Shown: positions 1 to 28,907 of the stretch, in pieces
How the letters are laid out: each line of letters opens with the position of its first letter
Position numbering within the stretch: the first letter of the stretch is position 1
Assembly (NCBI RefSeq): GCF_963678975.1
Contig: NC_089277.1
Coordinates: 20,429,440-20,493,439, forward strand
Direction of reading: 5' to 3'
Origin: Dysidea avara
Lineage: Eukaryota > Porifera > Demospongiae > Dictyoceratida > Dysideidae
DNA: 64,000 nt
Translations under genes and position numbers: made by a program
The notes under the pieces: model-generated
Databases searched by the model: none
The model's input: only the letters and a program-made list of their open reading frames with translations
What the model was told of the DNA's origin: nothing

Positions 1-3000
1 GATGGTATTTTCAACAAAAGGGAGCTTCAGAATTTGGTCTGATACCTGGTCAAAATCAGAATGAGCTTACTATTGCTAGTCCACTAGCAGAAAATGAAGG
101 TTCTTACTATTGTGAAGCTTTCAACGAACAAGGTGAACTAAGATCAAGGATTGTTAACCTAACTGTGTTGGAGTCAACAGTACTTCAGGTAACTCAAAGT
201 AGTCAAATCAATTTTATTGCTGCATCTCAGTCAGATATTAACCTTGACATTATGAGTTTGGGATCAGGTCGTACCGGAAATGATAAACATGCAAAAACTA
301 TTCTATCACCAACTGCAGTGAAAACATTGCAAGAAGAAGTTCTTAGTGTATTGCCCACACTGATATCATTTGGTTCAACAACAGTGAAAAATGTTGCAAT
401 AATTCCTGTATCTGCTACAACCATTAGTATTAGTGTTACACTTTACATTGAGAATATAAGCTACCTAAATATGTCACTGTCAGATTTTAACCTCTTGGCA
501 CAACAAGCCAGAGAAGAATGGCTGTCAGTTTGGAAAATGTTACAAGGTAATTCTGAACTGTTTTATACCAATGGGTATAAAAGTGATCCATCATCAATGC
601 GATTTGGCCAAATAAAGTTGACTTGTCCTCCTGGAAAGCAAGTTTCAACTACAAATAACCTTTTGTGTGGTAAGTTGTAGTAGCAATAATCCTATATTAT
701 GCACATTATTGGTTACACAGTAGTTATACTTATAACTTTATTTTATTTTCAGTAAGTTGTCCACCTGGAAGCCATCAAATTTTAGCTGACGAAAAATTGG
801 TGAAAGATGATGGAAGAATTCTAAGATATTTAACTCCAAAATGCCTACTATGCCAGATTGGGCAATATCAGGAGTTGCAAGGTCAAACTAATTGCAAGAA
901 ATGTCCAGTAAATTACATAACTCTGACAACTGGTGCAAGGTTTAAGGACAGTTGTTATGATACACAACAGTGTTCCCCAGGGATGTTTTCTGTAACAGGT
1001 GTTGAACCATGTGAAGTGTGCCCTCCAGGAACATACTCTGTTAATAATGGCTCTACATCATGCTTCAATTGTAACAATAAAAACAATCCACTTCCTTGTC
1101 CTATTAATAAAACTGGTAAGATATGCATTGCATGCAGTATTTACATGGATACAATACATTTTTACTGCATTTAACATAATTGTTATTCTTACTATGTATT
1201 GCTACATAAAGAGAGTGTGTAGAACATGTTAGCCTTAAATTTTAGAGATGTACTAATAATCGGATGAGTGCATGCTTGGTAGATTTCAATAATTACTTGA
1301 GCTGTTGTTACGTACCATACTCGGAAATCGGTTGCAATGGGCTATAACTAGCAGATTGGTACTCTATTTAGGTGCAGTACAATCAGGGAGGGCTGGTATC
1401 AAAGGTTCAGACATGTATTTATGTTAGTGATGCACTGATAGGAGATGCAGAATATCCCAATGTCGGTTTTGGTAACTATTACCCAAATATTTAACCAATT
1501 AATTTTACTAACCCTGATGTTATTGCTTTCAATAATGTTTTAAAATGGCACTTTTACAAATTGTCTGTAAAATTTTGGCAAATGTAAATATCAGATCAGT
1601 TACCAGTATCAGCTATATACTATGTGATTTTCAATATCTAAAATCTGGCCAATAAACTGATTTCCAATGATTTGCTGATTAATTGGTGCATCACTAATTT
1701 AGGTAATTTGTTAATGGCTTGTGGTAACCACAAGCCAGACCTGAAATAAACAGTGATTATTAGAGACCTACAGTAGCCCACCTATCTAATTAACTGCTTT
1801 GGCTTTACTGGTACAGTATGTGTTCAACCTCATTAGCTTTGCAATCATTACATTTAGTGGGTTCTGTACAAATAATACTGAAAGAGCCCTACAATCAGGT
1901 ATTGCAGTAAATTATCAGTAAAATAGGATCAGAGAATTGGTACATCTCAATTAATTTTGTATTTACTGTTTCAAACTTTCACACATGAAAATTTAATTGA
2001 ATATGGTACCACTATAATGCTGTTAACTTTTTGGACCCATTACATCTCTGGCTAGTTAGTTATTAGAAAAGCCATAAGTGTTCGAGTGTTAATCAAATGG
2101 CTGCAGGTTCGAGGCTGCCCAGGTCCAGTCATGGATTTTTTCTTCTTTCTCCTACTTTTCTAAGATACTTAGTGCAGTTAAATATAAACATCTTAGGCCT
2201 TTATAAGGCCTTCTGGTATACAGGCTCTGCCTTTACCAGGTACTTTATCATAAATAATATAGGGCTAGCCAAAAGTTAGTTATTAATTTTGATAATCATG
2301 TATATATGCAACATGTGCAAGCCCACAATGGTGGTACTGTATATAGCCTACTAACTTTAAGACTGTAAGACTTGAATGACTGTACTTATGTGTACATTTG
2401 TGTAGCCCACTAATATGGTAAACATGTTGTGTTGTTCATTATGAAAACATTTACTGTGTAATTGTAGACAATGATTATTGTGAACAATGTGAACACTTCT
2501 GTTACAACAACTCTAAATGTGGTTGCAATGATGGATATACACTGTCTACTGATAAGCAAAGTTGTATCAAATGTGCAGACTTATCTACAACATTCCTCTA
2601 TGACTCAACAAGAGCAACTTGGCATGTGACAATATGCAATAAGAATGATCTATCTCTAGTGTGCAATGGAAATCTGATCAATGATCAGTGGATTGTTACT
2701 TCGGCAAAGTGTGTTTGTGGTGTTAATGTAAGCTCTCTCTCTCTTAGGCTTAACAAGTCAAGACCATGTTCTGTTCAGGAAGATGGTGAACTTGAAATCT
2801 CTGCATCAGAAATATACCGTCATCCAAATTATAACAGTAGCTCCTCAGCTAAAGTTATGGATCTTGCACTAATCAAAGCCAAATCTCCTATACCAGTATA
2901 TGTGTTAAATGAAACCCTTCCATTATGCCTTGAAAATTCTGGTGATGATGATTTATATGAATATGGCAAGCGTAATAGTTATATTACATTTGGTCTAAAA

Positions 3001-3339
3001 AATTCTGATAATGTAGTTAAAGAAAATGCAGCACTGAGATTAGCTCACGTATTCATAACACCATTGTCTACCTGCTTGCAGAAATTTTATAAAGAAGCTG
3101 TTGATCTTGAAAGTAACCCTGCTATCTTTTGTGTGGGTTTCAGCAAAGATAATAGTTGTGCTGTAAACACTGGGTCAGCAATTATTAACAATGGTGTAAA
3201 TGGGAAGATGATTTTTACAGGAATAGCAAGCAGCTTTTCTGGACAGTGCACAGTAGAGAAATCGTTTATTGCTAATACAAAAATACAAGATGTAAAAGTT
3301 CTTCAATGGGCTAAAGGCATCATTGCAGCAGAACTCTAA
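1..3339 (+). CDS. Ig / ephrin-receptor-like Cys-rich / EGF / inactive trypsin-fold mosaic protein (3' part)
   Basis: Exons 1-669, 753-1115 and 2468-3339 have GT-AG introns and phase-1 junctions that keep one frame; the 5' part lies outside the window. In order they encode the end of an Ig domain (core Trp, then NEGSYYCEAFN with the usual D/E-x-G-x-Y-x-C signature), about 150 residues I cannot assign, and repeats of the CPPG(T/S)YS..G...C type found in ephrin-receptor-like GCC2/GCC3 modules. An EGF-like end (CGCNDGYTLSTDKQSC) and a trypsin-like domain follow. In the protease domain the catalytic His segment reads VTSAKC (His replaced by Lys), DLALIKA keeps the Asp, and the GDSGG block is CAVNTGSA (Ser replaced by Thr). 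The protein is therefore probably a secreted or surface binding pseudoprotease, not an enzyme. Domain calls are firm for Ig and the Cys-rich part, good for the protease fold. Confidence 0.85.
2044..2280 (+). repeat. tRNA-derived SINE-like repeat in intron
   Basis: Within the 1.35-kb second intron (1116-2467) there is a tRNA-like B box (GGTTCGAGGCT at about 2106), with a degenerate A-box-like stretch upstream and a T-rich segment downstream. This fits a tRNA-headed SINE fragment. The remainder of the intron shows no coding signal. Confidence 0.5.
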
Positions 3340-15125: not shown

Positions 15126-16459
15126 CCAGACTACTGTAAACTTACAGCTTGAACACCACAAGTTGTGCTTTAGTACTTCTTGAAAAGCAATTGCTTTATA
15201 ATTAGGAACAGAGTATTAACTGACCCCATGGTCATTACTGTGTGTAATGTCCCAACACTATGACTGTATGAACTACGATGTACTAGGCAAATGATATACA
15301 ATATACATGAAGCAAAATAGCAAGAATAACATATAATAAAATCTCATGCACTCATTGATGTTCCCTTCACAGATTGGTGGCCATCCATCTTTGTGCATGT
15401 GTATAGTACGTTCACGTTGAGCTGAATCCTGAAAAACAGCTAAAAATTAAAAGTGGATTTTTCTCAACAGAGTTAACATTTCAGCCAACCAGGTGATTAT
15501 CGGTAACAGCAAAGGTGTCAACAACAGATACATACGGTTTGGCTCCATTACAAGTTCAGGAAAGGGCTGTAATAGGCATTGTACTTTTTATGGCTTCCCC
15601 ATAGGAAATGTGTTGTGAAATTTTTGATTGGCCGTAAATATTATGTCAAACATTTGAACAAAAAGATTTAGAAATATTTTTAGCGGGTCAAGCAGTGCTA
15701 CAGATAAGCCAAATTTCAAGATCATGTGTAATTGCATCCATGAGTTATTAAACGTTTTTGAGGATTCAGCTCAACGTGAGCATACAATAGTTATCAAAAC
15801 CAACTGAACTTTTATGGTTCAGTTATCCATTGAACTACCAACTATATGCTGAGAGACTGTTCCTTTGAATTCACCTACTAGCAATAAATATTGGTGTAGC
15901 TACATAAGATTTGCCACACATGGAATACCATTAGGTCTATTGTTTCATTTCTTTTTATCATAATTATGGATCCCTACTTGTACTACACTTTTAATTATTA
16001 AAGTCTACAGAAATGGATTTAATTTGTAATAAACAAAGTATTATATGATGTATTCTACTGTAGCTTCAATACACACATATGTTGACATGAAGGAGAATTT
16101 CCTATATATACAGTGTAGCAATGTTAAATTGTTCTATTCACAGCCTCACTGCTGTAGAATGTCATTTCTCTAAAAGCTATTCTAAACACAATTGTAACAA
16201 AATATATAAAGTTACAGCGTGCACACAAATCATGGTAGATGTATATACAATATACTTATCTAATCACTGAATATGAGTGGAATAATTGTGCTAAATATCA
16301 TTGACAGTTTCCACTTTCCCTCCAAAACTATCAACTAAAAACTACTCTCACTTTCCTTCACAACAAATTGCTAGACATAATCAAGCACAGATATGTCTTC
16401 AGAGTCTAAAGTTTAAAGTAAGTGTCAATTTTTGTATATATTTAGGGATGTGTATTAGG
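15126..16459. other. Gene-free stretch
   Basis: AT-rich sequence with no exon-like signal recognised. An inverted CGTTGAGCTGAATCC / GGATTCAGCTCAACG pair at about 15413-15427 and 15763-15777 outlines another probable MITE of ~365 bp (15413-15777) whose family I do not know. Confidence 0.5.
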
Positions 16460-17020
16460 AGGTATGTAACAAGCCGAAAGTGGCAACATTCGGCCTGCCA
16501 AGAAATTGCCAAAAGTGGCAATTTCTGGCAACCAGAAGTTACCAATTTTGGCTACTTTTGAACTGCTCGAAGGGTCACTAGAAAATTGCCAAATTTGGCA
16601 ATTTTCCGAACAGTTCAAAAGCTGCTAAATATGGAAACTCAGGTTAAGTCATCACAGTTTCCAAAATTGGCAACTTCTGTTTAGCTTTGAGCAGCCACAA
16701 TGAATGGCACTCCAAAGCTACCAAATCTGGCAATACTTGTAATCGTGCTTTTATAACTGACGATAAACTAATCGATTGTGGAATTTGGTTTCCAAAACTG
16801 GTAGTTATTTGTTGTTTCAAAATTGCCATTTTTGGCAAGCTTTGAGATAGTCAAAATTTGTGCCACTTTTGGCAATTTTAAGCTGGCCATATAATTGCAT
16901 GCATTTTGCAAGTTCGCTGTACTGTGTTTTCTTTGTTAAATGCTGAGGCGTTTTATATCTTAATCACTAATTCAGCAACTAATTACGTACTTACTGAATT
17001 AGTGAATAATCAAACTTGAC

Positions 17021-17060
17021 TGCTACCAAGAGTTCATAATATGAACTCTTTCTGCTACTC
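17021..17060. repeat. Minimal palindrome related to the 42.6-44.0 kb element ends
   Basis: GCTACCAAGAGTTCATAAT is followed directly by ATGAACTCTTTCTGCTAC. These are the two termini of the element at 42631-43965 joined with almost nothing between, which suggests an end-to-end deletion derivative. Confidence 0.6.
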
Positions 17061-17277
17061 AATTCTAAAAACAATTTTATAGTTTTAAAACCAATTGTGG
17101 AACCACTCTAGGGTGGCTACTATTAAAGATCTGTCATCTTAGAGAGCAAAGTTAAAATCTACAAATTTATAAATAGCTACAGTATAGCTACTACTATTAT
17201 ACGTATAAGATGGTGTGCATCAATAATTATATTAAACTGCTGCGCACGCAAATATGTACAGTAATATTTAATAGTTC

Positions 17278-17383
17278 TACCATGGCCACGAGGGATTTGC
17301 CTGATATATATGCCCAAGCCCGAGGGCCGCAGGCCCAAGGGCGCGGGCATATATATCAGGCAAATCCAGAGTGGCCATGGTAT
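17278..17383. repeat. GC-rich-centred perfect hairpin
   Basis: The arms ACCATGGCCACGAGGGATTT and AAATCCAGAGTGGCCATGG continue inward through GCCTGATATATATGCCC and GGGCATATATATCAGGC. They surround a GC-rich loop (CCCGAGGGCCGCAGGCCC). Arms of about 40 bp make a long snap-back structure inside the KDZ element. Confidence 0.85.
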
Positions 17384-17467
17384 AAGTAATATATACCACT
17401 CTGGCATGCTCACCTAATAGGTGAAGGAAGACAAACCTGCATTCACCACATTACTTTTATACAGAGG

Positions 17468-17850
17468 TTTGCAAAAATCGATTGTGGGTTTAAATTGTGG
17501 GCACAAAAAAGAAATGATTGTGGGTTTCACTGGTTGTAGTGATACCATTTTAAACCAAAGTAATCACTTTGTGGATGAATAAAGTTACCTAAGGTGCTAA
17601 AATAAACACTTAGACATATAGGTTGTGAATGTTTGAGGCATCTTTTCGTGCAGTTGAAATGTACTCTGTAGAAAAACAATCCACATTGCAAAAATGATTA
17701 TTTAGTGATGCTTAGTAACTGAACTATGCAATGACTCACTCATTTCTTTTTACTTCACAACAATGCCCCTGACTAAATCAATGTTTAATTCAAACCCACA
17801 ATGCAAAACTTTAAGCAGCTCTAATTCAAACCCACAATGCAAAACTTTAA
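17468..17850. repeat. CCCACAAT-type inverted/tandem repeat
   Basis: GATTGTGGGTTT at the left pairs with AAACCCACAAT at the right, where a 34-bp unit (AATTCAAACCCACAATGC...) is duplicated in tandem at about 17788-17857. A related GATTGTGGGTTTT motif recurs near 57179-57225. Probably a MITE nested in the KDZ transposon. Confidence 0.5.
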
Positions 17851-17899
17851 GCATCTCTATATAAATAATCAAAGGGAACTGATGCTTTGTAGCTGCCTC

Positions 17900-18010
17900 A
17901 GCATCAAAGGCAGTTGTGGTCAGGGCTATATCATGATATTGCCCTAACCACAGGACAATATCTAGATATTGCCCTGTGGTCAGGGAAATATGTGATATAT
18001 AACCCTGTGA
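17900..18010. repeat. Palindrome cluster
   Basis: Interleaved inverted repeats with CAGGGCTATATCATGATATTG, AATATCTAGATATT and CCCTGTGGTCAGGG lie just downstream of the transposase stop codon. No coding content; a nested foldback or a structured 3' region. Confidence 0.5.
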
Positions 18011-18246
18011 TTTCCTTTAATCTGAGGTGTCAAAGTGGTATATATACTGTATATCGTCATTTTTTTCAAAATAACCCTGTGTAACATATTTCAAGTGATT
18101 ATGAGGTGTCATAGTGTTGAATTTAGTATTGAACTTCTACATACGTAATCAAAGTTAATTAGCAAAGTGATAAATAGTTAGCGACTTGTTACTCTACTAG
18201 TATATGATTGTGTAAGATGGTGTCCAAGCAATTTGTAAAAGAAACA

Positions 18247-21200
18247 TCAGCAACTTTTTTTCAAGGAAAGTTTCCGCTTACTGTCACTGTTTTTTATTGA
18301 AAGAAACAGCTTTAGATGGAAAACAAAGTTGGAATGCTTCATATATGCAAGTTGCCCCTTGATTCGCTGCATACCAGCATTTGCTTGCTCATTCACTTGT
18401 GAATTCAAGCTCTTTGTATCCAATGTATTGTATTGATCCAGACAGTAGCCAGATGGACATCCTACGTGCCCTCTCCAATGAAACCTGTCAACACAAAAAG
18501 AAGTGTTTTGAAAAAAGACTGGCTCTCTGTTCAGGCAATACTGATGAAGACCACAGGCATTGTCATAAACAATAATTTTAGGAGGCTTCAAAAAGCGCGT
18601 CTTGAATATCTGGAATGGATGCCGCGGTGATTCACATTCTTTTAGGACTTCGAAACCATAGCATATTGCGTGGGGACAGTATATGGTAAAAATTCCAGGA
18701 GTAAGCGTTGGATGCTTAGAACTTGTTTTATTACAAACATCACTGCCAGCTGCTATTCTGGATTTGTCAATCTGGTATACAGCATTTCCATGTAACTGTG
18801 GTAAACTTGGAAAATAGCTTTAACTATTTGTCCTGCTTGGCTCAGGATAATGGAACTTGTCAGCTTTTGAGACTTTAAATGGAGCTTGTATAGTCACAGA
18901 TATATGACCCAGCAAATCAAAAACCTCTTGAGGAATTTCAGAAGAAATATGTTGATGGCAGAGCGACAAGAAAGATGAAATAACAGGAGCCTTTTTTGAC
19001 AGCAAATTCCAATAGTAGCTGTTTTGTGGCATAAATACATCTATTGATCTATTAGCAACTTTCTTCAGCGTATCACATGCCTCTTTACATCCTGCAATTT
19101 GTACCATTCCACACGCTGGTGCATTTCTTGCAATTTCAGAAAAAAACCTTCTGTATAGCACAGGTGCTAACTTTTCTTGGTGTTCATCTTCAATTTTGAG
19201 TAACAGTTTTTCGAGTGCTATAAAACCATCAGAATGTAGTATTTCAGTGAGCTGCTTAAATTCTACGTCAGTAAGCTTTTGAGGACAAACAATTGGCTTT
19301 CTATCTCTTTTGAAACAAGAATATTGCAGTAGTAAATCTCGAGCTTTTTTGGTCTTGATCAAAACTCTATCAACATGTGAACTTCCTTTAATAGGTGCTA
19401 ATTTACTTTCATCCAAATCACAATTTTTTATAGGTAGCATAAGATCTTTCCGCATGCCAATCATTGTTCCATCGCATACTATTATGTCAGGACAGGGTCC
19501 ACAGTTTTCACACACAAAGGACTCATCAATTGGTATATCTAAAAGCCTACTAAAAGCATACCATGCTTTTCTCAAAAAATGTATTGAAGGTGTGGCATCT
19601 TCTCCAAAGCATGTATATGTTCTTTGAAGACATCTACGTAATAAATTAAAGGTACGTAGGTAAATAGTAAAAGTATATAGTTTACAAAAGTATAATATTT
19701 CTCAAAGTGCAGTCATAGAAGGAACACAGATGCAACGTACCTTTGGTAAGCTATCAGTGGGTTTCTTCCTTCAATCATGAGGTGCAAATAATTAAACAGC
19801 ATTCCATAGTAAAATAACCTCTTGTTATCTAAATTAAAAAGTAAGCAATCTTGCCCATCAAAGTTGTATCGACATGAACAATCCCCGACAGTTGGCCTGT
19901 AGTACACTTTCCTTGTCTTGTCATGCATAGCAAGGTTTTGCTTATAAATCACAACACCTGTACCAGCAATCCAATTATTTGCAATAGGATCATTTTGATT
20001 CCATGAATTTCCATGTTTACAATGTTCATCTAAAATAGCATTCAATGTAAGTTACTGATACACATATGCTGATTGCCATGCTCTGTAGACAATTAATTGT
20101 ACCTGAAATGAAGGGTGGCAAATGCATTGGGAACATCCAATTTCCTCCTTCATGCTCAGCTACACGACTCTGTAGCACTTTTGAGAGTGGATAAGGTATT
20201 TTCTTCCATGACACTGCAGTGGGTACTTCATCTACCTTGCCATCATCAGTGTCCTCATCAGGTGTGAACTCAGATCTTTCTCTCCATTCTTCGAACATCT
20301 GCAAGGTAATAAAATTTTATCAAAACAATTTACAACCATATAGTACACTGTGTGTGATTTGCAATATCCTTCAATTGATGCAATACCGTTTACTCAGAAA
20401 ATTTGGCAGTGACTTTAATTTGGCAGTTTGGCAATTTCCGACCAAATTGCCAAATTAAAATAATGCCAAGCCGCATCAATTCAACAAGGTCTTTATACCA
20501 AAGCACTGCTTTCTAGAGATCGACAAATTAAAATGACGCCAACAGCTAAAACAAGGCCAAACACCAAATTTTATATTTCCACTTCTACGGTATAATATTA
20601 TTTAAATTTCCACTACACTGCTCACCTTGAGATGATCGCACTGTGGATCGGTACATACAATACATTTGTAGGTTGAACTGTTTCTTTTGTGTTTCATTAT
20701 CAGGCCTGCACTCTGTTCATCTTCTATCATATAAAAAGTTATATATTTATATCACAAGCATGAGATGTGACATCAATGCTATTACACAATACAGAGGGCA
20801 AAAGCCGAGGTTGAGTGTAAATAACATTGATATCATATGAGTGCTTGCATATGATATAACTGGATTCTAACCCACCACCTTTGTTCATCAATAATAATAG
20901 TGATTAGTCTTGCTTTTCAAGTTACAATTATTGTGTTTAGTAACCAGCAAAGCAGATCAGCTACATATGTATAGGTGATTTTAAATGCTTTGCTAGTTTG
21001 CAGTCAAAAAACCCAAATAGGTAATAACTAAAAAATGCTATCCTCATCTGAGCACTTCTTATTTAATAGTAATTATCATCAACACATGCACTTCAAATGT
21101 TTCTCAGTGCAATAACTGGTAGTTATATCCCTGGCATAACTTAGTTATTGCACACTTTGTTTCTTTGATGTAAAGCTTTAGTGGGTCAGAACACAGTATG

Positions 21201-21686
21201 TGTATGTAAACAATGAGCAAATGTCAGTATAAACTATAAAGTGTGCGTACCTGAAACAACGGCAACACACAGTGGACTTATGCTCAATACCACTATTTGC
21301 TGAGCTTCCTTAACACCACTATCTTCTTCATCATTAGCTTGTTCTGAACCTCCCTGATGGCTCTGAAGCTTACAAATGGTCGAACGATGAATGCAGTATT
21401 GTGACTCCTCCTTTAAGCAAAATGCGCTGTAGTTTTCCGTGATTATTGGAGAGGTGCACATCAACCCATCGCTTAGTACTTTTGATTCTTGACATGAGCA
21501 GGTAAATAAAAATGAGGTCTTTGACATGGAATGAAACTTCAGTTTCTTTATCAAACAGTACTCTGACTTGAGCTGTCCATTTTCAAAGCAATCTGCTATG
21601 GCATACCATTGCTTGCTCAGGGGTATAAACCTTTCTGATTGAAGTACAGTTTGGTAGTAAACTATATCTTTAGGCAGTGCACAGAC
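18247..21686 (-). pseudogene. KDZ-family transposase, one in-frame stop
   Basis: Five minus-strand exons join in perfect phase: 21686-21251, 20705-20626, 20298-20103, 20029-19741 and 19633-18247, about 795 codons. The order is: a SWIM-type zinc finger (CSC ... CIH) in the first exon; a small C-x2-C-x4-C-x2-H finger (CIVCTDPQCDH); VYYRPTVGDCSCRYNFDGQD; CENCGPCPDIIVCDG with a likely first catalytic Asp; VYDNACGLHQYC with a second Asp; VDRFHWRGHVGC; and NEQANAGMQRIKGQLAYM with the likely catalytic Glu. These are signatures of the RNase-H-fold KDZ transposases, also seen in host HMGXB3-like proteins. The only break seen is a TAA at 18820-18822; reading resumes in the same frame. A possible further 5' exon (21884-21740) does not join in phase, so the true start is uncertain. 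Confidence 0.85.
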
Positions 21687-22123
21687 CTATGGGAATCAAA
21701 CTACGTAATATAGTACTTGCCAGTTATGTAAGTACATACCTTTTCTTGATAAACTAATGTAGATGACTGAAGCTTTGGATTTGGTAAAGATTTGACTCCT
21801 GAAGTTTTGACTCCTGAAGTTTTCTTGACCTGGAAACTCCTTCCTATCTTCATGGCCCTTCAAATGTGCAGATTTGTGATTCATAGAGATTAAGTATAAT
21901 GCTACTCAGAAGTGTTGATTGGATTGTAAAACTTGAAAGTGTATGTCATGTGAGGAAAACTGCTTTGAAGTAATTATAGTAAAAAGGTGCATAATTCCTT
22001 AAAGTCAATAAAGACTTTTGTAGCATAATTTATTTTGCTTAAAGACTGGTCTAACCTGTTTAAACTTGCTGTTTTGCAAGGATCAGCCGTTTTCAGCTAT
22101 AAATTTACACTATCACACAACCT

Positions 22124-22988
22124 ATGGCATTTGGCAACTATTGGCGGAAAAGAATGGCTTCTAAAAACAAGATGATTTCAAGGGACTCTAAAAGGAGAAT
22201 TGATGTTATTACTAAGAAGATTGGAGACCTTGAGACGTATGGAATACCAAGCTTGTTTGTTTATGCTACACCTTGGACTGGAGGTCTTTGCGTTGCTGGA
22301 GACAAACGAATGGCTTCCATTGTAAAAGATAACAAACTTCAATTTCTTGAAGTTCTAAAACATCAGCCTCAAGAGGAGTCTCAAGAGGATGTTTCATCTC
22401 CAAAGCTGATTCTTCCTGCTTTGCCTCAACCAATTGATGAAATGAATGGAAGGACACTTAGCTCAGTCATTGTAGGAATTGGAAAAGATTTTGGTATTGA
22501 TTGGAAAGGAGACCAGCCTGAGTGGTGGCCTAATACAGTGCCTTTTAATCATCCTAGAGAGGTTCCAACACAATACAAAGGTCAGTATTATTTATTGTAT
22601 AATTGTTTGATAGTTCTGTTGTATTGTAGGTGAATGGTCAGAATGCCTAAGAATAGTGCTGAAAGAAATTTACAGGAAGTTTGAAGGAGAAGGAGCTTCC
22701 ATTTCTGAGTTGAAGAATGCTACAAGTTCAGATGCAGTTAGTAGCTCCAATAGGAAATCGGTAGAGATGCAAAGTCATGGTGAGGAAGAAGCTGAGGAAG
22801 AAGCTGAGGAAGAGTGGGAGATAAGACAACAAATAGAGGCCACTATATCTCCTATATCATCAAATAATGAAGAAGAGACTAATGAAGAGGATGAACATGA
22901 TGACAAAAGATTAAAAGAATTTACACCATTGGCCAAACGTAGATGTAAAAGGGTTATTAAGAAGCGGACACGATATGGAGAACATTAA
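22124..22988 (+). CDS. Accessory protein of the KDZ transposon (WWP motif, acidic C-terminus)
   Basis: Two exons, 22124-22580 and 22630-22988, joined in phase 1 through a 49-bp GT-AG intron, give about 271 residues with no break. The N-terminal part is basic (NYWRKRMASKNK...SKRRID). The centre has DWKGDQPEWWPNTVPFNHP at about residues 126-144, a Trp-rich motif of a kind seen in some animal nuclear factors that I cannot assign to a family. The C-terminal half has a Glu-rich run and ends in a very basic tail (KRRCKRVIKKRTRYGEH) typical of nuclear localisation. It starts about 440 bp from the transposase's first sure exon, in the opposite direction, so the two genes may share a promoter. Likely a DNA-binding helper; function inferred only from position and composition. 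Confidence 0.7.
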
Positions 22989-23289
22989 ACTTCAAATTTC
23001 TTATAGCTGTGTACTGTAGAAACTGCTTTTAAGTGCTTTAATCAAATTTGCTTTCAAATCAATTCATTTACAAGATTGCATATGTTATTATAAAGAATTA
23101 CACCAAGTCCCAGATTAGGTGGTTTTTGAGGACCATTAGCTTCTGCTTAAAGCAACAAAGGCAATGCCAATTTTGGGGAATTATGGAATAATCTCAGTAT
23201 TGGTGACCTTGAGATAACTGCGGTTGAAAAGTTAGCTACTTATAGTAGAACTTCTGTTTTGGAAAACTATTGCATAGCTTAAAAGTGGC

Positions 23290-24302
23290 AACTACGTACG
23301 TAGAATGTCACCAAAAGTGGTAAATTTTGTTTATCACAACTTGTGGTTTTGGACAATTCTGAAATAATTCAAAATTTGCGACTTTTGGCAAACTAAATCC
23401 CACAATTAATTGGTTAATTGTCCTGTATAAAAGTGACAGTATGTTTGTTGCCAGATTTGGTAGCTTTAAATCATTGAATTTAGCTACCAACTTTGGAAAC
23501 TTCTAAATTCTGCAACTTTGAAGTTACACAAAATTGCCAAATATTCCAACTAGCTATAAACCTGCCAAAATCGGCTTATTTTCACTTTTGAGCAGCTCAA
23601 AAGTAGCCAAAATTGGTAACTTCTGGTTGCCACTTTCGGTAAAATTTGTTCTGTAACATACCCAGAAATTGCCATTTTTGGTTACCAGAAATTGCCATTT
23701 TTGGTAAAATTTGATCTGTAACATACCCAGAAATTGCCTTTTTTGGTTACCAGAAATTGCCTTTTTTGGTTACCAGAAATTGCCATTTTGGTAAAATGTG
23801 ATCTGTAACACACCCAGAAATTGCCATTTTTGGTTACCAGAAATTGCCATTTTTGGTAAAATTTGATCTGTAACATACCCAGAAATTGCCTTTTTTGGTT
23901 ACCAGAAATTGCCTTTTTTGGTTACCAGAAATTGCCATTTTGGTAAAATGTGATCTGTAACACACCCAGAAACAATCCAAATATTTGCCACTTTTGGCAA
24001 ACTAAATCCCACAATTAATTTGTTAACTGTCCTGTATAAAAGTGACAGCGTGTTTGTTGCCAGATTTGGTAACTTTAAATCATTGAATTTACCAACTTTG
24101 GAAGCTTCCAATTTTGGCAACTTTGCAGTTACACAAAAATGGCAATTATGGACAACTATAAACCTGCCAAAATTGGCTTATTTTTACTTTTGAGCAGCTC
24201 AAAAGTAGCTAAAATTGGTAACTTCTGGTTGCCAGAAATTGCCACTTTTGGTAATTTCTGAGCAGTCTAATAGTTTCCAAAATTTGCCCTGTAACATACC
24301 TG
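23290..24302. repeat. KDZ right-end region with higher-order tandem repeats
   Basis: Short units of CCAGAAATTGCC(A/T)TTTTTGGTTA are stacked from about 23660 to 23990, and a ~151-bp higher-order unit is repeated almost perfectly (about 23666-23815 and 23816-23967). Each large unit includes TGTAACATACCCAG or TGTAACACACCCAG, which resembles the element's own outermost sequence (TGTAACATACCTG). Open frames through this array are artefacts of the repeat. Confidence 0.85.
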
Positions 24303-25108
24303 GTATTAGGCAGAACAAAGCTAAAGACTCAGTAAAATATATTTAACACAACATCTTTAACCAGGCTGTAGGACCAGGCCTACTGGGCTACAAACCTTCA
24401 ACACTTGCACTGTAATAAATAAAATGAGTGCTACATGTAGTTTCTTACTTAGGTTAAAATTTATTATAGAGGCATGAGTTTATTGTAATTATTATAGCCT
24501 CATACACTCAGCACCATTCTTTCCATTATTACAGTGTGATACTTTATTTATTTACTGCATGTTATAAAAAGTTGATATTAATAAGTAGGGACCCGCCGAT
24601 AATGCTCATAATTTTACCTATTATGCTATGCTGCACTGCTCAAAAATTCACCTATTATGCTTAAATTAACGCTCAATATTTATGGTGTAGTATTAGTGTC
24701 AAAATAGTACAGTATTTTGGTAGATAGCTACAGTGTAATTTTTTTGTGTGCGGGTGAAGCCAGGTGTTGAAATTACAATGAGTCGCACAATTAATTTTTG
24801 ATGGGTGATGGAATATTTATGATGGCAGTATAAATAAATTAAAACTGCACATCGATAGAGCGTTTGCATATCCATGGTAACCGTAAATGACGTTGACTGA
24901 CACACCTCCGCCGCCATATTGCTGTACCACCTGTTATACGCGTGGTCCTATGATTGTGGTAACCGAAGTGGTAATGACTGTTTAGATAGTGAATATGGTA
25001 TGAAATCAATGCGAATACATAGTAGTGCTGTTACTATTGCATGGCTGTTGTTGATAGGATTCATCTAGTGATGTTTGTCTTAGTCAGCAGACTCAGCACG
25101 CACAGCTA

Positions 25109-26975
25109 TTGAAAGTGAGTGATAAACGAAGGTACCTGACAAAGATAGCGGATGTTGGCGATCCCTATTGTATACCAAGTGCACAGCTTAGTAAGGAAGT
25201 TATCCCGTCGGTCACAAACACAGACATCTTCAACTATCTTGTTTTGACTACAAGCTTCTGTACCTCTGAGATGTGTAAAGCTTTGATGCTTACAAGTACT
25301 TTATGTGTGGCTTTGTGAACTGTTTGGGATCAAAGAAAATTGGTAGTAAAATAGTTACAGTTGCCAAGGTATGTAAGAAAGATAAGTACCCATATTATGT
25401 AGTATAGTAGTTTAATACAATTACAGGTGAGACATTCGCAACGAGCTAATGACCCTCCACTTGAATCATGGGTGATGTGTCTACTTGATGGAACTGTTGA
25501 TTGTGGACATTGTACCTGCATGGCAGGACTTGGAGAAGTTTGTTCTCATGTAGCAGCAATCCTTTTCTACCTGGAATCTGCAGCTCGATCAAAACTAACT
25601 TGCACACAAACTAGTTGTATGTGGAAGGAACCTACCTTTGTTGATGCTATTCCATACTTGCCAATTTCAGAGCTGCCACTGTCCAAACCAAAGCCTAGAA
25701 TCAGCTGTAACAAAAGGAGAGGGGCTCATTATCTAAGTGACATTACACCACTTGAGGATATGTTTCAGGTAGCAGAAGAATTGTCAGTTTCTGAGCTCCC
25801 ATCCACTAGTTCATCAGCCTGTCAGTCAACAAGTTTCTTGTTGTGTGTTCCTCCATCTGCTGAGGAGCGAATGGTCTTCCTTAGAGATATTTGCTCACAA
25901 CCGACCGGCAATTTGTTCCATAGTACCTCCATTTTCTAATGAATTTAAACCCACAGCAAATACTATTCAGCTACCTCCATCACTGCTTGATCTGTACAAC
26001 CCAGAAAATGAAGAATTGCTTTACACTGAGTTGTTGGAAGTATGTGATGAATTGCAGTTATCGGTTAGACCAGAAGAGGTACAGAATATTGAAGTTTACA
26101 CTCGAGAGCAAGCCAAGAGTCCAGCTTGGTTTAAACAAAGAGCAGGAAGGATTACTGCATCAAAAATGAAAGCAGTTTGTGCCACAGACCCAAGCCATCC
26201 TTCGTAATCATTACTAAGCCAGATCTGTTATCCACATTTGAAAAAGTTCACAACTCCAGCAACCACATGGGGGTGTGAACATGAAGCAGTTGCAAGATTG
26301 GCATACATTGAGATGATGAAACCCATACATACAAATTTTCAGTACAGAAATAGTGGATTCGTAGTAAGCACAGAATATCCATACATTGGTGCCAGTCCTG
26401 ATGGAGTGGTGCAGTGTGACTGCTGTGGATGTGGGGTACTGGAAATCAAATGCCCATACTGCGTCAGAAAGAGCACTCCAGATGAAGCACCCTATCTCAA
26501 TAATGGTAAACTCTCTGAAAAGCATGGATATTATTACCAGGTTCAGACACAACTGCTTGTTTGTTCAGCAAATTATGCTGACTTTGTTATAGCTACATTC
26601 AGTGATGCTTCCCCCAATTTGTCATGTGAACGCATCTTTCTAAATGAAAGTTTTATAGAACATGTTAAAGCTGCCGAAAAGTTTTTCAAAATTTGTCTTT
26701 TACCAGAGTTACTTGCTAAGTGGTACTCTCGGAAGGCAGTTATGCCTGATCAGACGGCTGCAGCTTCAGTGGTATCTGCTGAATATACATACTGTTACTG
26801 TAAGGAAGATAAGGGTGGTGAAATGGTTGGATGTGACAATCCTAATTGTTTACATGGCTCATGGTTTCACATTGAATGTCTCAAGATACCTAAACCACGT
26901 TCCAGTAAGTGGTATTGTCCAAACTGCAGGACAATGCCTGAGTTTTCCCGTAAACGGCAGCGGACTAAGCAGTGA
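25109..26975 (+). pseudogene. SWIM / YqaJ-exonuclease / PHD protein of the ISL2EU-like element
   Basis: Starts with YLTKIADVGDPYCIP, has an intron at 25369-25426, then a SWIM finger (CGHCTCMAGLGEVCSH). A YqaJ-type nuclease follows: WFKQRAGRITASKMKA, then WGCEHEAVA, IGASPDGVV with the metal-binding Asp, and LEIKCPYC with the E-x-K pair. It ends in a PHD finger (CYCKEDKGGEMVGCDNPNC, WFHIEC, WYCPNC). YqaJ proteins are lambda-exonuclease-like nucleases, and in ISL2EU elements they accompany the transposase. Two frame slips (about 25285 and 25905-25935) and one stop (TAA at 26205-26207) break the reading frame, so this copy is inactive. All nuclease residues I could check are still present. Confidence 0.85.
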
Positions 26976-27090
26976 CTTCACCTTGTGTTAGTTTATTATT
27001 AACTATTAAGTTTGTATAGGTTTTTTAATAAAGTAAATAACATGACAAAGTTCATCTATTAATAATAATAATCATTGTTCAATTAAATGA

Positions 27091-28907
27091 CTATTCTACT
27101 GGTACAACTGAAACACAAAGATTGTTCAGGGCCGAACACACTAATATTATTTTATCGATTGGTGGTTTGTCGCCAGGGTGTTTAGGCTTTAAAAAATCAA
27201 TAGGGATACAACTCATCAAAATTGAGTACCTCTGACGGGTAGCTCCAATGACACGTTCTATGTGTATCCGTACATTCGCTAACTTCCTTGTTGCCTCAAC
27301 ATCTATGGGTGAGAGTTGGGAACAGCCTCTTGTAAATGATGGTATATGAAGTGTTGCCTGCATTCTGGCCACATCGTCAGCAATATCAAATCCCCGGTCA
27401 GCAAGAACACAATCTCCTGGAAGTAATTTGTTTAAAAATCCAGAGTTGACTGTCAAAAGTTTGTCACTGACCCTTCCACCCCAGGCAGGTGAAATGAAAC
27501 TTGTTACACCTTGTGGACACATTGCAATGAACACTTTTGCTGTATTTGCATGCTTGTATTGAGACCAAGTGGATGATTTTGCCCGACTAGGGGTTTCAAT
27601 TTTAATCTCAAAACAATCAATCACTGCAACAACCTTAGTGCCATATGTTGCCCGAAAACAGCTGGGCATAGTCTTCCATAATTCCTCTCTTTCAGGCCAC
27701 TTGATGAGCCACTCCAAACGACAAGACATTATATCCAACATTTCATGGAAACGCCTACTGACAGTTGATGTACAAATTCCTAACCGGTAAGCAATGTCTT
27801 GTAATCTCAAGTTAAGCCTCAATTTCATGAGTACTATCATGAACGACCTCCAATAGTATGAACGTTTATCACCTAGTGCAAAGGAGCCCATCACTAGTTC
27901 AAATGTTTTTAACAGGAGAAGGCTAGTAGCTAACCCAGTGTAGTATTGTACCTTGGCATCATCAGACATAATGTTGTTCTCACAGAAAAAATTATCGTCA
28001 TCCGTCTGTACGGCTTTGTTACACATTTTAGGTGGCCTTGGAGTTTGAGTTTCACCATCAGCTGTCTGTATTGCATGATCTATCAGCCCACTGTTTGAAT
28101 TAAGTGACAACTGACTGGACTGTCCTGTTGTTGTACTAGTTGAAGTCAAGGTACCGTTTGTCAAAATAAAGGTTGGGTTAGTGATCAAGGTACTGTTTGT
28201 TGTAGAAGTTATGGTTGACATAGTGGTTATTGTAGAGGTACTGGTTGAGGTACTAGTTGTTGTAGTTGAGGTACTAGAGGTAGTTGCCAAGGTAGAGGCT
28301 GAGGTACTGCCTGATGTACTAATATTTGAATTCGTCTCGAAAACTCTTTTGTTCTTCTCTTTGGCTCGTGCTTCTCTTTCTGAGGCTCTTTCACTAGCTG
28401 CATGTGTTACTGCCACATCTAGCTTGCTGTGTCCAAGTTCCAGTGTGGGGAACCAATCAACATTATGCTTATCCATTGTGTCAGCAGGCTTCCCTACAGA
28501 GCATTTGACAAATGTTAAACTCATGAGTATCAATGATATCAAATCATGGATTATAAATTTCCTAGCTACTCAGGAAATGTATAATCTGAACTGAAAGCCA
28601 ACACGCATACAGTGTACAAGTATAAAAAATAATACACTATAAAATATTTTGTATATAATCAATGCATGAACTTTCAATAGATACTGTACTCACTAGCCAC
28701 AAAATGACACTCGCAAACCCAGACATTTGCTAGCTTCTCCTCCGTTAAATCCTCTCTCGAAATAGCTTTCAGCCAGGCCCTCCTTCGCTCTCTAGTAATC
28801 TCCAACATTTGCTGACCTTGATGCTGAATAATGGCTGGAAGCCTATAAAATGAACATTTAGTCTTGGATGACTTCTTGGAGCTGTTGATTATTGCACATC
28901 CAACCAT
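27091..28907 (-). CDS. THAP-domain DDE transposase of the ISL2EU-like element
   Basis: Exon 28907-28694 joins exon 28493-27091 in phase 1, giving about 538 residues with no stop. N-terminus: a THAP finger (CSFYRLPAIIQHQG, TRERRRAWLKAI, VCECHF), but its first C-x-C pair is incomplete: CAIINSS has Ser where the second Cys should be. Then VDWFPTLELGHSK, a long Ser/Thr-rich low-complexity stretch, a helix-turn-helix (RLQDIAYRLGICTSTVSRRF) and a DDE_4-type catalytic domain with all three acids: VVAVIDCFEI, VLADRGFD and IHIERVIGATRQRY. It faces the YqaJ gene, with only 115 bp between their ends. The catalytic core looks intact; loss of the THAP cysteine and of the partner gene argue against present activity of this copy. 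Confidence 0.85.

Follow-up and report, generated by a model that had tools for sequence, protein, structure and literature searches.

The 64,000-nucleotide stretch of the Dysidea avara genome analysed here (contig NC_089277.1; hereafter the window) contains, at positions 16460-24302, a genuine KDZ-type DNA transposon (Kyakuja, Dileera, Zisupton) that has been active recently. An earlier note, made from the letters alone, had bounded this element and proposed it as a useful reference for sponge-type KDZ elements. That proposal undersells the locus, whose notable part is a second gene that was missed at the first reading. Besides a transposase gene, the element carries an intact open reading frame (ORF2; 22124-22988, plus strand, 271 amino acids, spliced from two exons), which is oriented divergently from the transposase and whose product is, as judged from profile comparisons, a homolog of the DNA-binding region of NRF1. 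The window copy belongs to family A and was compared with its close copies in the same genome, namely L031, L032, L033, L035, and L034 joined with L040; the family letters A-K and the term lineage are labels coined in this analysis. The features of the element are the following:

16452-16458, no strand: left target-site duplication, GTATTAG (or GTATTAGG with the following G assigned to the target)
16459-16472, plus strand: left terminus, GAGGTATGTAACAA, identical in 6/6 close copies
16506-16875, no strand: left subterminal array of TTGCCA-N4-TGGCAA-type palindromes
17268-18040, no strand: nested insert, about 770 bp long, that is specific to the window copy; empty site in L031, L032, L033 and L035
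18247-19633, minus strand: transposase exon 6, with putative acids in CDGT, YDNAC and NEQANA and an internal stop at 18820-18822
19741-20029, minus strand: transposase exon 5, with a CxC4 cluster below the Pfam cut-off
20103-20298, minus strand: transposase exon 4
20626-20723, minus strand: transposase exon 3, with a cysteine/histidine cluster (by eye)
21251-21686, minus strand: transposase exon 2, with a CxC...CxH SWIM-like motif (by eye)
21740-21853, minus strand: transposase exon 1, with its start codon at 21853
21854-22123, no strand: gap of 270 bp between the divergent start codons, a presumed shared promoter, without a TTGCCA or TGGCAA half-site
22124-22580, plus strand: ORF2 exon 1, NRF1-like protein
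22630-22988, plus strand: ORF2 exon 2, with the rest of the DNA-binding region, an acidic linker and a conserved TPLA-K/R-rich tail
23164-24254, no strand: right subterminal array of these palindromes, some of them within overlapping direct repeats spaced 65 bp apart
24289-24302, minus strand: right terminus, CTGTAACATACCTG (reverse complement CAGGTATGTTACAG), identical in 6/6 close copies
24303-24309, no strand: right target-site duplication, GTATTAG(G)

Ends, target duplications and copies of the element

As first bounded, the element starts with AGGTATGTAAC, ends with GTAACATACCTG and lies between copies of GTATTAGG at 16452-16459 and 24303-24310. A search of the genome retrieved five further copies of 96-99% identity with both ends in common; the terminal bases are the same in all six copies and the flanks differ in each, so the precise ends proposed earlier hold. 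The inverted ends were likewise borne out, by a 91-nt inverted pair (16481-16571 and 24189-24279, 87%) just inside the termini. Because a G stands before AGGTATG in the six copies although their targets differ, we assign it to the element (16459-24302), which leaves the window with a duplication of 7 bp. A fresh target duplication, which differs between copies, is thus present, but its length in the window reads better as 7 than as 8 bp. The other copies show GAATGAAT (8 bp, L031), AGTCACT (7 bp, L032), AGAAAATC (8 bp, L033) and GTCACCT (7 bp, L035), beside GTATTAG in the window; no clear duplication is seen at the flanks of L034/L040, so that it is present in five of the six copies. A fixed length of 8 bp does not hold, since 7 and 8 bp both occur. 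By eye, family G has an 8-bp duplication, and families B and C an imperfect flank match of 6 bp plus a mismatch.

The five copies that were aligned over the element diverge by 0.6-0.8% in ungapped columns, and their spread is therefore recent. The description of the window copy as near-intact is accurate apart from the nested insert and the internal stop. The left part of this insert lies within a 69-nt inverted pair that is 81% complementary (17260-17328 and 17332-17400), and the insert looks like a small non-autonomous element.

Relationship of ORF2 to NRF1

Profile matches are judged here against the Pfam gathering scores of 23.5 bits for PF10491 (Nrf1_DNA-bind), 26.6 bits for PF18758 (KDZ) and 26.9 bits for PF18717 (CxC4). 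In a phmmer search of the PDB, the window ORF2 matched human NRF1 (8k4l) with an E value of 6e-4. A profile made from an alignment of ORF2 from five families (A1, comprising A from the window, B, D, E and G) retrieved NRF1 in 8k4l (6e-11) and 8k3d (3.6e-8), followed by kinases (0.015), and hhalign of the ORF2 profile with host and human NRF1 gave 98.1%. The family G ORF2 alone exceeds the PF10491 cut-off (42.4 bits, E 8.8e-11). Family F (fragments L014 and L020; partial) was left out of the alignments; family C, with an ORF2 that contains stops and closely resembles that of B, was counted for palindromes and left out of A1 and of the comparison of contact residues, and the comparisons did not extend to family K or to the ORF2 near L039.

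A genome-wide search with PF10491 gave ten matches: host NRF1 on C7 (318.5 bits), eight more above the cut-off, whose frames run across the intron (two stops), and a weak one. By their coordinates, the eight and the weak match all adjoin transposases of this lineage. Over this region the identity between host and human NRF1 is 57%, and the ORF2s are 23-30% identical to host NRF1; the transposon ORF2s are therefore far from both. The NRF1 gene of the host suggests in itself that the host is an animal. In families A, B, D, E, G and I, the ORF2 frame breaks at a common position ahead of a conserved W (KG/EWS in A and EG/NWS in G, with the slash at the break); the open NRF1 stretch of the host has no such break. 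A scan of viral contigs with the profile of ORF2 gave 83 stretches that match a pattern, none of them encoding a relative.

Four of the ORF2s in A1 include a C-terminus (L065, L061, L062 and the window, 22900-22988), and after the acidic linker these end in a conserved tail, TPLA-x-R-(K/R)-x-K-R, perhaps a nuclear signal or a contact with the transposase. A numerous, non-autonomous-looking group of about 20 places matches solely this C-terminal part of ORF2; eleven of them were fetched (L050-L060), and six of these carry the right terminus GTAACATACCTG followed by different flanks.

ORF2 is linked to the transposase and is under purifying selection

Protein searches with the ORF2s of families D and G gave 34 and 33 matches, which were merged by hand into at least 28 ORF2 loci plus host NRF1. 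The 68 transposase matches were likewise merged into 52 places, to which the search for close copies added two (54 in all). A lineage transposase lies within 10 kb at 26 of the 28 ORF2 loci, in divergent, head-to-head orientation at 25, and with 0.05 expected by chance a fortuitous neighbourhood is rejected. No transposase was found within 10 kb of ORF2 at C4:4201687 and C15:2323261, and at C14:9877575 the two genes are on the same strand. A genome-wide search with PF18758 gave 84 matches. Forty places pass the cut-off by themselves, all of them without an ORF2 within 15 kb; together with the linkage at 26 loci, this indicates that ORF2 marks this lineage within the genome. Three family G copies on C8 (G000:C8:941135-1017497) are spaced 35-37 kb apart and have ORF2 exon 1 sequences that are 99-100% identical, which suggests a local segmental duplication.

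ORF2 is under purifying selection. The ratio of nonsynonymous to synonymous substitutions (dN/dS, Nei-Gojobori) between A and B is 0.16, with a 95% range of 0.16-0.32 for the corresponding ratio of proportions (pN/pS), and the other computable pairs gave 0.10-0.41 with dS near saturation, two of the ten pairs yielding no value. The gene is open in five of the six family A copies, the exception being L032 with one stop, and in L031 both genes are open.

The transposase and its affiliation to KDZ

The transposase gene has six GT-AG exons on the minus strand and 840 codons including the end stop. The exons are phase-consistent, as noted before, except that there are six and not five; the spliced frame of the window copy contains the one internal stop already reported at 18820-18822. 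The frame is open throughout in L031, with no read-through needed, and this is the case in one of the six family A copies, those of L032, L033, L034 and L035 being shifted or interrupted. The SWIM finger survives as a motif seen by eye, without a SWIM profile match. Likewise, the three putative catalytic acids stand in motifs (CDGT, YDNxC and NEQA) that are kept in family A, L039 and family G, but their catalytic assignment was made by eye. The transposases of families A and G are about 41% identical. Family G, assembled from L068, L064, L028 and L069, has an open transposase frame of 785 residues, and its right end contains the terminal ACATACC sequence three times and a 61-bp tandem array.

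The assignment to KDZ was examined with PF18758, which matched the C-terminal piece of 190 amino acids in the window (18247-18819) with E 3.3e-4 and 20.9 bits. Within the lineage, PF18758 matched two of four members, with a best E value of 2.3e-5, and in no case was its gathering score reached; it was not listed at E values up to 1 for L031, either with a piece of 298 amino acids or with the full protein, nor in a profile search with the full family G transposase. CxC4, a cysteine cluster named for KDZ transposases, matched family A with 22.7 bits (E 9.1e-5) and family G with 16.2 bits (E 0.0098), both under the cut-off. None of the 40 places with PF18758 above the cut-off lies within 10 kb of a lineage transposase, the closest being 111 kb away. 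KDZ membership thus retains sub-threshold similarity to two profiles but no match at the gathering score; a diverged, KDZ-like transposase lineage is supported by these similarities, though not decisively.

Palindrome arrays at the ends and residues that may read them

The ends of the element are dense in palindromes. With up to three mismatches, TTGCCAANNTTGGCAA occurs at 25 sites in the 1.6 kb of both ends, compared with 0.59 expected from 200 first-order Markov sequences (maximum 5); there are none in the 6.2-kb interior and six in the remaining 56 kb of the window. Similar concentrations were found in seven of the nine families looked at. For the core CCA-N4-TGG, the sites observed and expected in the ends are 23 and 0.56 in family A, 19 and 0.52 in B, 20 and 0.57 in C, 12 and 0.31 in D (right end), 12 and 0.40 in E, 23 and 0.38 in G, and 27 and 0.51 in H. 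Outside the ends the core is found 0-2 times in the interiors examined and 15 times in the 56 kb outside the window element. CCA is most often preceded by TTG in families A-E and H; in family G the most frequent triplet is CAT (19 of 46 half-sites), and TTG precedes CCA in none of the 46.

In NRF1, the DNA bases are contacted by R206, N242 and R244, and the two half-sites are set through the dimerisation region (PMC10810270). At these three positions, the ORF2s of families A, B, D, E and H have S/C/A, H and R/Q (S, H and R in the window), family G has K, N and T, and family I has K, S and T. W258 is present in all seven aligned ORF2s and W224 in six, that of E having a stop at this position. 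Family G, whose contact residues differ, therefore also differs in the bases flanking the shared CCA-N4-TGG core, a co-variation that fits ORF2 as the putative reader of the palindromes.

A model for the role of ORF2

We consider it probable that this is a two-gene KDZ-like transposon in which the NRF1-like ORF2 binds the palindromes of the ends as a dimer and helps end assembly or licensing. The element would move by cut and paste, as presumed for it; ORF2, which is built on the dimerisation and DNA-binding region of NRF1, would act as a dimer, and this dimer, rather than the transposase, would read the TTGCCA-N4-TGGCAA arrays at both ends. It might then help to gather the ends for the transposase, or license transposition.

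Several observations weigh against this model. R206, N242 and R244 are not retained as a set in any aligned family, and for this reason we regard ORF2 as an NRF1-like homolog and not as an NRF1 ortholog; the backbone-contact positions 201, 202, 220, 223, 246 and 253 are not kept either. The window ORF2 matches PF10491 in hmmscan below the gathering score (E 4.2e-4, 20.5 bits), that of family D was not listed in the profile search with PF10491, and a structure prediction of ORF2 exon 1 alone, run with no alignment, had a predicted local distance difference test score (pLDDT) of 38 and was discarded as useless. At 28 of the 54 transposase places there is no ORF2 less than 10 kb away; many of these matches are short or contain stops. 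Families I and J showed no palindromes in the fetched stretches, in which their ends were unlocated, and thus give no support to an extension of the co-variation. Lastly, the co-variation is a single contrast, of G with the rest, in which the transposase also differs and could be the reader.

This last point leads to a possible, if somewhat unlikely, alternative, in which the transposase reads the palindromes and ORF2 does other work of the sort that accessory genes may do in other transposons: it could make chromatin accessible, counteract silencing or DNA methylation, or direct integration. The transposase itself has cysteine clusters (CxC4, below the cut-off), and it too varies between the families with TTG and the one with CAT, being about 41% identical in A and G. 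Accessory TET/JBP genes in fungal KDZ elements (PMC12730594) would also suit another role for ORF2. In favour of ORF2 as the reader are the palindromic nature of the arrays and the homology of ORF2 to a DNA-binding region which, as a dimer, recognizes a palindrome (PMC10810270).

ORF2 could also regulate the divergent promoter of the element itself and touch the ends only secondarily, as the head-to-head start codons, 270 bp apart, and the divergence retained at 25 of 28 loci would allow. We consider this quite improbable, because the gap between the start codons lacks any half-site and the interior any palindrome at up to three mismatches, its one bare CCA-N4-TGG core, at 17091, being far from the gap. 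Finally, a passive, functionless fragment of host NRF1, captured once from the single strong NRF1 locus of the host, is highly improbable and largely refuted by the dN/dS of 0.16, the transposase alongside at 26 of 28 loci and the open frame in five of six family A copies, while the 23-30% identity to host NRF1 rules out a recent capture.

As to origins, animal NRF1 might conversely have been domesticated from an end-binding accessory protein of a KDZ-like lineage, its dimeric reading of palindromes being a relic of the binding of transposon ends; we regard this as unlikely, and the two directions, capture of NRF1 and domestication into NRF1, are not separable from one genome.

Other features of the window

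A neighbouring transposon (25403-28569) encodes a DDE_Tnp_4/HTH_Tnp_4 transposase (27094-28569, minus strand) and a frame with YqaJ and a PHD finger (26208-26972, plus strand), and we take it to be reminiscent of ISL2EU-type elements. An open frame of 305 amino acids at 2422-3336 contains a Trypsin domain.

Comparison with known systems and implications

The element resembles KDZ transposons in its similarity to the KDZ and CxC4 profiles, in the three acid motifs recognized by eye, in its duplications of 7-8 bp and in having an accessory gene next to the transposase, as TET/JBP in fungi (PMC12730594). The same source gives duplications of 8 bp for Zisupton and for Zisupton-1_PGr of the Dileera lineage, and of 7 bp for Kyakuja, which has CA..TG termini and no inverted repeats (PMC12730594). 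Our element differs in mixing 7- and 8-bp duplications, in profile scores under the gathering cut-offs and in the NRF1-like nature of its accessory gene. From the NRF1 side (NRF1/erect wing/P3A2), ORF2 shares the PF10491 region, the WWP motif, W224, W258 and the order of the dimerisation and DNA-binding parts; unlike NRF1, it is borne by a transposon, is 23-30% identical to the host protein and does not keep R206, N242 and R244 as a set, and its proposed sites are CCA-N4-TGG palindromes and not GCGCATGCGC.

In En/Spm, the end-binding protein of the transposon, TnpA, is separate from the catalytic protein. The likeness to our element lies in the two genes and in closely packed subterminal repeats to which a protein other than the catalytic one could bind, whereas the transposase and the DNA-binding protein are both of other kinds.

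Among the matches listed in searches of the open literature, none links NRF1 to KDZ or to a gene of a transposon, to judge by the titles and the starts of abstracts. Nrf1_DNA-bind has reportedly been noted in an ascidian in one study, and KDZ, in separate studies, is said to occur in a cnidarian and in a brown alga.

To our knowledge, the DNA-binding region of NRF1 is usually treated as alone among transcription factors. The ORF2s give it relatives, conserved as a gene of a whole transposon lineage, and whether NRF1 was captured by a transposon or domesticated from one becomes testable with trees. The ORF2 families would be natural variants of the protein with different matching palindromes, and since the L031 copy has both genes open, activity can be tested. 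For KDZ-type elements, the NRF1-like gene would be a second kind of cargo beside TET/JBP and may offer a concrete model for how arrays at transposon ends are read.

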